Below, one piece after another: positions 3,421-5,388 of a stretch of 64,000 nucleotides of DNA; position 1 is the stretch's first letter, and the number at the start of each line of letters is the position of its first letter. Below the pieces are notes generated by a model. It saw nothing but the letters and a program-made list of their open reading frames with translations, did not search any database and was not told where the DNA came from. Source of the DNA: Pelobacter propionicus DSM 2379 (GTDB taxonomy: Bacteria > Desulfobacterota > Desulfuromonadia > Geobacterales > Pseudopelobacteraceae); assembly GCF_000015045.1 (NCBI RefSeq), contig NC_008609.1, positions 2,365,501 to 2,429,500 of the forward strand. The letters run 5' to 3'. The position numbers and the translations under genes were made by a program.

Positions 3421-3449
3421 TTGACACGACAAACAAGACACTGTTATAT
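3421..3449 (+). promoter_or_regulatory. Sigma70-type promoter of the riboswitch-controlled diheme gene
   Basis: TTGACA (3421-3426) and TTATAT (3444-3449) are separated by exactly 17 bases. This is nearly a consensus promoter and predicts a transcript start near 3456, about 15 bases before the predicted GEMM-I aptamer. Confidence 0.8.
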
Positions 3450-3471
3450 ACCGTCATACACATCGTACGTT

Positions 3472-3558
3472 CCTTTTGAAAAGGCCAAACCCTTCGCGAG
3501 GAGGGGGCGGAAAGCGAGGGATCTTCCCTGAAGAGAAGATGGCCGAGCTGCCAAAGGG
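3472..3558 (+). promoter_or_regulatory. GEMM-I riboswitch aptamer (cyclic di-GMP or 3',3'-cGAMP)
   Basis: The leader shows the hallmarks of the GEMM-I class. P1 can form from CCTTTTG (3472-3478) and CAAAGGG (3552-3558). The A-rich junction and GGCCAAACC lead into a short stem capped by a GCGA tetraloop (3495-3498). GGGGGCGGAAAGC follows, the core that docks with the tetraloop. A second hairpin (ATCTTC...GAAGAT, 3521-3540) and the conserved GGCCGAGCTGCC close the structure. Aligned as in the Geobacter cGAMP-responsive subclass, the ligand-discriminating position (20 in Vc2 numbering) would be A, favouring cGAMP, but an alternative alignment gives G. The 3' side overlaps a terminator, so ligand binding should allow read-through. 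Confidence 0.8.
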
Positions 3559-3588
3559 TTATTTCCTTTTGGCGTGCTCGGTTTTTTT
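3543..3588 (+). terminator. Riboswitch expression platform (intrinsic terminator)
   Basis: CCGAGCTGCCAAAGG (3543-3557) pairs with CCTTTTGGCGTGCTCGG (3565-3581), followed by seven Ts. The 5' arm is the same sequence used for the aptamer's 3' core and P1 strand, so terminator and ligand-bound aptamer are mutually exclusive (ON switch). Confidence 0.85.
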
Positions 3589-3861
3589 ATGGGTTGGCGC
3601 CTACTGGAACCACGGCCGTACCGTGCGGTCACGAAAGGAGGTGACGGAACAGCGCAACATCCATGACAGTGGAGTGCATTTGATCAACAGCTCCCCTGGG
3701 GTGATTTTTCAAAAAACAGCGGAGAGTGGAATCGGTAACGAATCAATTGTCCGCGATTCCACACCGTCCCAGGCCGCCATATCCACTAAGTTTCATACGA
3801 ATCAGCACGTGCGGTCCGCATGTACGCAAGCATCTGGATTACAAAAAAGGGAGGAGGACAC

Positions 3862-5388
3862 ATGAAGAGAACCAATGCATTTTTCATGGCAGTACTATTC
3901 TGCTGCATAGCCGGCACGGCCCTGGTTGCCTCGGCAGCCTACCATCACGCCGGGAGCGCCGATACCGATGCGGGAAACTTCCTAAGAGTTTACCCAGACA
4001 AGGCGGGCACGAAGCTGGACAACTGCGCCACCTGCCATGGCGGGGGAGTATACACCAGCAGTAGCGGCAAAAAGAGTACACTGGGCAGCTGCCAGTACTG
4101 TCACGCCGCCACAAACTACGGCGCCGATACGGGCAAATATGCCCAAACGCTCAATTCATACGGCACAGCCTACATGGACAATGGCCGTAACGAAACGGCG
4201 ATTGCGAACATACAGAACGAGGATTCCGATAGTGACGGCTACTCGAATCTCACCGAGATCCAAGCCAACCGCTATCCCGGCGATGCGAACGACCATCCCG
4301 GCAAGGTGGTCGCACCTTTCCGCATTTTCACCAAAAAGCAACTGGAGGCCATGCCCCAGCACAGGCAGTTCATGCTGATGAACACCACCAAATCGGGTGA
4401 CTTCTACACCCAGTATTCCGGCGTCACGATGGAGAATCTGCTGAAAAAAGCGGGAATATCCTCCTCGGCCACCCGGATCTTTGCCTATTCGCCCGACGGC
4501 TATGCCCAGCAGCATCCGCTGGAAGACAGCAGCGACAACACGGGGAACAGCTATGCCCCCTTTGTGATCGGCAGCTATCCCCAGGCCAGCTATTTCTATG
4601 CCGCGGAAGCGGACAAGGCGATCAATGAAACGTACGGCTGGTGCGATTACAGCTCCCCCAATGCACAGGGGCGCCAGAACGGTGACCCGATCAGGGTTAA
4701 AAACGGCCTCCGGCTTATGCTGGCCATCAAGGCGGACGGAACCGACCTGACCCCCGGCGTGCTCGGCGACGACAACAAGCTGACCTCAGGCAGCGAAGGG
4801 CCCTTCCGGGTCGTGTCCCCCGAGAAGATCCTCGGACCTCCCGACCAGCCCTCCACCAAACCAGCACTGGGTTCGATCTGGCAGTATAATCCCAGTGCGG
4901 ACCACAACGCCGGTTTCTCGACGAAATGCGCGACCATGATCAAGGTGGACCCGCTTCCGGACGGAACCACCGACATCGATGTCATGGAGGCGGGCTGGGG
5001 CTACGTGGACCAGGGCAAGATCGTCGTCTACGGCGCCCTGCAGGGACCGCAACCGATCTTCCCGGCCGCTGGCGCCACGAAAGTGAACTGGCATCCCGCC
5101 TTCTTCATGTGGAAACACAGCCCCGGCGTGGAGAGGAAGGATATTGTCAGCTACAAGCTCGAATACACGAAAGACGAGACTCTGACCGACTGGACGACCG
5201 TAATGATCGAACGCAGCGCAAAAAAAGCGCGCATGCACTTTGATCCCATGGTAAAGGACAACACCACCATCATCCTGGAGCCCAACACCCGCTACTGGTG
5301 GAGGGTAACGGACCTGGATGAAAACGGCGGCACCACCGTAAGCTCAGTGCGCAGCTTCACCACAAAGGCCAAACCGGCCAGGAAGTAG
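3862..5388 (+). CDS. Secreted diheme c-type cytochrome with molybdopterin-oxidoreductase-like domain
   Basis: This 508-residue exported protein starts at the ATG behind GGAGGAGG. Signal peptide: residues 1-25. Two CxxCH heme-binding motifs follow (CATCH about residue 55, CQYCH about 76), then a DSDSDGYSNLTE stretch resembling a calcium-binding thrombospondin-3/EF-type loop (about 120). The central part (about 150-330) has features recalling the oxidoreductase molybdopterin-binding fold (G-V-x-x-x-x-L-L-K-K-A-G, then EGPFRVV and a GPPDQ segment), but no molybdopterin-binding cysteine could be assigned. The C terminus resembles a fibronectin type III or purple-phosphatase-like beta domain (RYWWRVTDLDENG). 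Role inferred: periplasmic or extracellular electron transfer. Expression is predicted to be controlled by the GEMM-I riboswitch in the leader. Confidence 0.75.
   Translation: MKRTNAFFMAVLFCCIAGTALVASAAYHHAGSADTDAGNFLRVYPDKAGTKLDNCATCHGGGVYTSSSGKKSTLGSCQYCHAATNYGADTGKYAQTLNSYGTAYMDNGRNETAIANIQNEDSDSDGYSNLTEIQANRYPGDANDHPGKVVAPFRIFTKKQLEAMPQHRQFMLMNTTKSGDFYTQYSGVTMENLLKKAGISSSATRIFAYSPDGYAQQHPLEDSSDNTGNSYAPFVIGSYPQASYFYAAEADKAINETYGWCDYSSPNAQGRQNGDPIRVKNGLRLMLAIKADGTDLTPGVLGDDNKLTSGSEGPFRVVSPEKILGPPDQPSTKPALGSIWQYNPSADHNAGFSTKCATMIKVDPLPDGTTDIDVMEAGWGYVDQGKIVVYGALQGPQPIFPAAGATKVNWHPAFFMWKHSPGVERKDIVSYKLEYTKDETLTDWTTVMIERSAKKARMHFDPMVKDNTTIILEPNTRYWWRVTDLDENGGTTVSSVRSFTTKAKPARK

Follow-up and report, generated by a model that had tools for sequence, protein, structure and literature searches.

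A probable c-di-GMP-type GEMM-I riboswitch upstream of an exported diheme protein gene of Pelobacter propionicus

Which second messenger is read by the leader of a gene for an exported diheme protein in Pelobacter propionicus DSM 2379, and how would it act on that gene? The locus lies in a stretch of 64,000 nucleotides (hereafter the window) taken from the main contig (4,008,000 bp; positions 2,365,501-2,429,500), one of three contigs in a genome of 4,241,119 bp. On the smallest contig (L125, G000:C2:1-6000), 4.6 kb are 99% identical to Providencia plasmids; this match covers an efflux outer-membrane subunit and a recombinase, and is either a recent mobile segment or contamination. A first-pass annotation of the window had proposed that the leader is a GEMM-I ON switch of the cGAMP (GEMM-Ib) subclass. 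Using a combination of methods (covariance models, structural alignment, RNA folding and surveys of genomes), we propose that a diheme protein of the GEGP family, exported and encoded by a monocistronic gene, is under the transcriptional control of a single c-di-GMP-type GEMM-I riboswitch, a reading to which we give a probability of about 80% on sequence grounds.

When the whole window was scanned against all 4227 Rfam families with permissive filters, the sole strong match was that of RF03167 (c-di-GMP-I-GGC) at 3475-3556 on the forward strand (61.6 bits; E=4e-12; gathering score 59), all others being far below threshold, while RF01051 (c-di-GMP-I) gave 56.4 bits on the same segment (gathering score 35). 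A covariance search was the check that the first-pass annotation had called for, and with both families above their gathering scores we identify 3475-3556 as the core of a GEMM-I riboswitch aptamer, in which the GCGA tetraloop, GGGGGCGGAAAGC and GGCCGAGCTGCC named by that annotation are all present. The parts of the aptamer, all on the forward strand, are as follows. The P1 5' strand CCUUUUG (3472-3478) can pair with CAAAGG (3552-3557), according to direct reading and a constrained fold, and its CCUUUUGG letters are found again in the terminator described below, on its right arm. P1 carries an A instead of the consensus G at position 94 (Vc2 numbering throughout), and the opposite base is U, a compensating change. 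In the structural register, P2 (3485-3510) has six pairs, closed by the GCGA tetraloop, with C21-G46 and C22-G45 as its lower pairs. P3 (3513-3549), with its outer pairs joining 3513-3515 to 3547-3549, is supported by the Rfam alignment, the structural register and the constrained fold. Taken by itself, the aptamer does not fold more stably than shuffled sequences do (z 0.05), which can be the case where tertiary contacts hold an aptamer. Searched as DNA against the genome, the leader matched nothing beyond short P2 segments of two other aptamers.

The base at position 20, on which ligand specificity depends, is a G (3484) and not the A that had been claimed earlier: the Rfam alignment, an explicit structural register and the alignment to our own model R1 all agree, and the register, fixed by two C-G pairs and the AAA/GGC internal loop, leaves no room for A20. 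With an A at position 47 (3511; Rfam alignment and structural register) and a C at position 92 (3551; structural register), which is expected to pair with one guanine of the ligand, the ligand contacts form the canonical c-di-GMP combination. The Rfam label could not be taken at face value. From the consensus letters we infer that the names GGC (RF03167) and UAU (RF03168) stand for positions 20, 47 and 92; the window reads G-A-C, without the G47 of the RF03167 consensus, so that the label reflects the overall score only (RF03167 exceeds RF01051 by 5 bits despite the absent G47, model position 37). RF03167 is thus the best-scoring Rfam family for an aptamer that does not carry its name-giving signature, as read from the consensus. 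As to the Vc2 type of RF01051, the window shares with it the P1-P2-P3 layout, G20, A47, C92, a P2 tetraloop and a score above the gathering cut-off, but differs from it by the GCGA loop, by a P1 U-A pair instead of C-G at 13/94, and by two C-G pairs in lower P2 where the canonical pairs are G21-C22/G45-C46.

We built two covariance models, R1 from 17 G20/C22 aptamers and R2 from 36 A20 (cGAMP-type) aptamers, the P. propionicus genome being represented in neither. The window aptamer scores 74.6 bits with R1 and 37.5 bits with R2, whereas the genome's own A20 aptamers (L011-L015) score 87-106 bits with R2 and 55-57 bits with R1; by these model scores, the window aptamer groups with the G20/C22 aptamers and not with the A20 ones. 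The membership in the cGAMP subclass that had been proposed is therefore not supported, and we reject the A20/cGAMP assignment on both the alignment and the model scores. It is known that a G at position 20 goes with c-di-GMP and an A with cGAMP, and that natural G aptamers of Desulfobacca prefer c-di-GMP in in-line probing (PMC9481103). Since the A20G mutation in the aptamer of Geobacter Gmet_0970 switches its selectivity from cGAMP to c-di-GMP (PMC6456294), c-di-GMP is the better prediction for the ligand. At E<=1, RF01051 matches the genome 17 times, and 16 of these matches exceed the cut-off. Eight of its GEMM-I aptamers (L002, L003, L005, L006, L007, L009, L010 and L016) score best with RF03168 (c-di-GMP-I-UAU); several of these combine U92 with G20, and L016 has U at both positions.

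How binding would be turned into gene control is indicated by an intrinsic terminator (3541-3588, forward strand), made of an 18-pair stem, a 6-nt loop and a U tract at 3582-3588. Its stem (3541-3583) has a folding energy of -29.1 kcal/mol (z -6.6), and none of 200 shuffled sequences was as stable. The left arm of the terminator (3541-3558) contains the 3' strands of P3 and P1, plus C92 and C93, and the aptamer and the terminator are therefore mutually exclusive. This overlap had been noticed in the first-pass annotation, whose ON-switch layout is likewise supported, at the level of sequence, by the overlapping terminator, the folding of growing transcripts and a survey of related leaders. When growing transcripts were folded with and without the aptamer enforced, the cost of enforcing it was 1.5 kcal/mol with a 3' end at 3560-3568 and 16.8 kcal/mol once the terminator was complete, which leaves the ligand only a brief interval of transcription in which to act. 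In the survey, a terminator reusing the 3' end of the aptamer was found in 19 of 20 C22-class, 35 of 43 A20 and 10 of 10 G20/U22 leaders (0.5, 1.3 and 0.6 leaders, respectively, being expected with downstream bases shuffled). The pilM riboswitch of G. metallireducens, for which the ON mechanism is known, has the same mutually exclusive layout (PMC9262584). Because the strong terminator reuses the 3' strand of the aptamer, the leader is most naturally read as an ON switch. Computation thus shows how the aptamer folds, which bases it has at positions 20, 47 and 92, and that a terminator overlaps it, and from this we infer the ON polarity in the cell, together with c-di-GMP binding and a physiological role.

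The proposed mechanism would operate as follows. As the RNA polymerase leaves the promoter, the P1-P2-P3 aptamer could form from about nt 3558 onwards. With c-di-GMP bound, G20 and C92 would contact the two guanines, A47 being stacked between them, and P1 and P3 would hold the strand 3541-3558, so that no terminator forms and the gene is ON. With no ligand, synthesis of 3565-3583 would allow the same strand to switch into the 18-pair terminator, and transcription would stop at the U tract.

By direct reading, a putative promoter (3421-3449, forward strand) combines TTGACA (3421-3426), a 17-nt spacer and TTATAT (3444-3449), TATATA (3445-3450) being an alternative -10 element with an 18-nt spacer; transcription is predicted to start at about 3456. 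The first-pass annotation had called this promoter near-consensus, and it was right as to the perfect -35 element and the spacer, but overstated the whole: the -10 element is weak, and a consensus promoter scan listed no site at 3421-3450. The promoter is thus plausible, yet not near-consensus. Downstream of the terminator, an Rfam scan of the 270 nt leading to the start codon revealed neither another aptamer nor any other known RNA family. A small ORF in the leader (3476-3865, TTG start) was discarded as mechanical; it spans the aptamer and the terminator and is without support.

The regulated gene (3862-5388, forward strand; ATG at 3862 with the Shine-Dalgarno sequence GGAGGAGG just 5') encodes a GEGP motif-containing diheme protein of 508 amino acids. 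As proposed earlier, it is predicted to be a secreted diheme protein: it has a signal-like N-terminus and two CxxCH motifs, and its score of 441 bits with NCBIfam NF041762 (diheme_GEGP; curated cut-off 300) places it in this family; at the GEGP motif it reads SEGP, as do several homologues. Pfam gave no family above its cut-off for this product. PF00174 (molybdopterin-binding oxidoreductase domain) matched below the cut-off, with E values of 0.035 for the diheme protein and 0.017 in L023. PDB sequence searches returned no useful match for the protein, and its AlphaFold model is poor (pLDDT 48). Matches occur in 7 of the 141 genomes of the order (P. propionicus included), plus a few metagenome-assembled genomes. 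None of the 10 homologue loci scanned (flanks of 1.5-3 kb) carries a GEMM-I aptamer, and so, on this comparison, GEMM-I control of the diheme gene is peculiar to P. propionicus among the genomes compared, and conservation lends no support to this combination of switch and gene. Two homologue loci have a molybdenum-cofactor riboswitch, which lies about 190 nt directly upstream of the gene in L029 (2623-2742) and about 2 kb away on the opposite strand in L030 (852-989). Together with the weak PF00174 match, these riboswitches hint, as a lead only, that the diheme protein may work with a molybdenum or tungsten cofactor.

As a step towards the messengers present in the cell, a survey of the genome for GGDEF domains gave 35 matches, of which 30 loci were read. 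Most of these have an Asp at the position separating c-di-GMP synthases from Hypr enzymes. L051 (634-1998) has a Ser at this position, with GHLVGS, GGDEY, an apparent receiver domain and an apparent hisS gene directly behind, and L055 has a Thr together with GGDEF; natural Ser and Thr enzymes with GGDE[F/Y] make up the Hypr pattern (PMC6456294). The closest solved relative of L051 is 6d9m (221 bits vs 107 for the next one), whose description fits a construct reported in the GacA paper, the GGDEF domain of G. metallireducens GacA fused to T4 lysozyme. L051 is likely the GacA orthologue, a cGAMP synthase. Given that most GGDEF loci are of the Asp type and that L051 and L055 are of the Ser/Thr Hypr type, it is likely that both c-di-GMP and cGAMP are made in this organism.

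We searched the 141 genomes of the order with two DNA patterns identical except at position 20. On this scaffold, G20 was found at 79 sites in 44 genomes (64 with C22 and 15 with U22), and the A20 pattern in 124 genomes, most of them with several matches and with U22 in all of the about 150 sites listed; the reversed-pattern controls gave no match for G20 and two for A20. Each genome contributes one locus or only a few, and the loci are often close relatives, which means that the counts do not represent independent events. The genes behind the G20/C22 group mostly encode proteins with signal-like N-termini and, in the part read, no heme motifs, and thus the diheme protein is not typical of the group. 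We advance only tentatively, and with more doubt than trust, the broader proposal that G20/C22 aptamers form a distinct, coherent subclass on a GEMM-Ib-like scaffold, in which c-di-GMP would be read beside cGAMP aptamers in the same cells, two inversely regulated messengers would act through almost the same RNA on different secreted proteins, and position 22, covarying with position 20, would be a further determinant of specificity.

Both types of aptamer also occur in series. At L126 (G000:C3:3116427-3122000), an A20 (cGAMP-type) aptamer with its own terminator (C3:3117927-3118003) and a G20/A47/C92 (c-di-GMP-type) aptamer (3118185-3118275; 80 bits) precede a fibronectin-type-III protein, and behind the second stands CCTCCTTGT, a possible pairing partner of ACAAGGAG at the ribosome site. 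This tandem is possibly a two-messenger gate; the gate table of a review (PMC9481103) holds no c-AMP-GMP/c-di-GMP pair. In four related genomes (L074, L075, L078 and L080, at about 1300-1740), an A20 aptamer has a similar G20 (U22) aptamer about 190 nt downstream; both carry a terminator, and in most of these genomes multiheme-type genes come next, giving a natural A20/G20 pair in one leader.

Could the window aptamer nevertheless answer cGAMP? It shares with the Geobacter GEMM-Ib riboswitches (pilM, pgcA) the GCGA loop, GGGGCGGAAAGC, a terminator formed from the aptamer 3' strand and the predicted ON polarity, and a genome with five clear A20 aptamers and a GacA-like Hypr enzyme would suit a cGAMP-specific switch, in which cGAMP from that enzyme turns the diheme gene on. 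However, the GEMM-Ib riboswitches have A20 and U22 where the window has G20 and C22, their J1/2 reads GAyAAT and not GAAAAG, and P3 differs too; the low score with the A20 model and the effect of A20G on the Gmet_0970 aptamer speak the same way, and we consider a cGAMP-specific switch quite improbable. A relaxed specificity, with the hybrid scaffold responding to both c-di-GMP and cGAMP at physiological levels, draws on the same common scaffold, on C21/C22-G45/G46 pairs unlike the canonical ones, and on the view that position 20 biases selectivity rather than acting as a strict filter (PMC9262584). It is slightly easier to entertain than the cGAMP-specific switch, but still unlikely, the engineered A20G variant of the related scaffold being reported to be selective for c-di-GMP (PMC6456294).

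The least probable alternative in our eyes is a degenerate leader, in which a relic aptamer has left control of the gene to the promoter or to elements in the 270 nt before the start codon. The homologue loci devoid of GEMM-I, the long stretch 3' of the terminator and the weak -10 element are consistent with it, but a relic would hardly have kept all ligand-contact positions, the compensating change in P1 and a strong overlapping terminator, nor would it score so high with a model made from other genomes. We thus retain the c-di-GMP reading: the riboswitch is real and is probably a functional c-di-GMP-type GEMM-I ON switch, and it is reasonable to think, as was proposed earlier, that a dinucleotide second messenger sets the production of the diheme protein.

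The identity of this messenger matters for the physiology of the organism. In G. metallireducens, the levels of c-di-GMP and cGAMP run inversely (PMC12285248). With A20 aptamers and a probable cGAMP synthase both present in P. propionicus, a mistaken choice of messenger could invert the prediction of when the gene is expressed, and the correction from cGAMP to c-di-GMP may flip the expected physiology. Together, the near-identical GEMM-I scaffolds that differ at position 20 within one genome offer a natural test of one-base messenger specificity.
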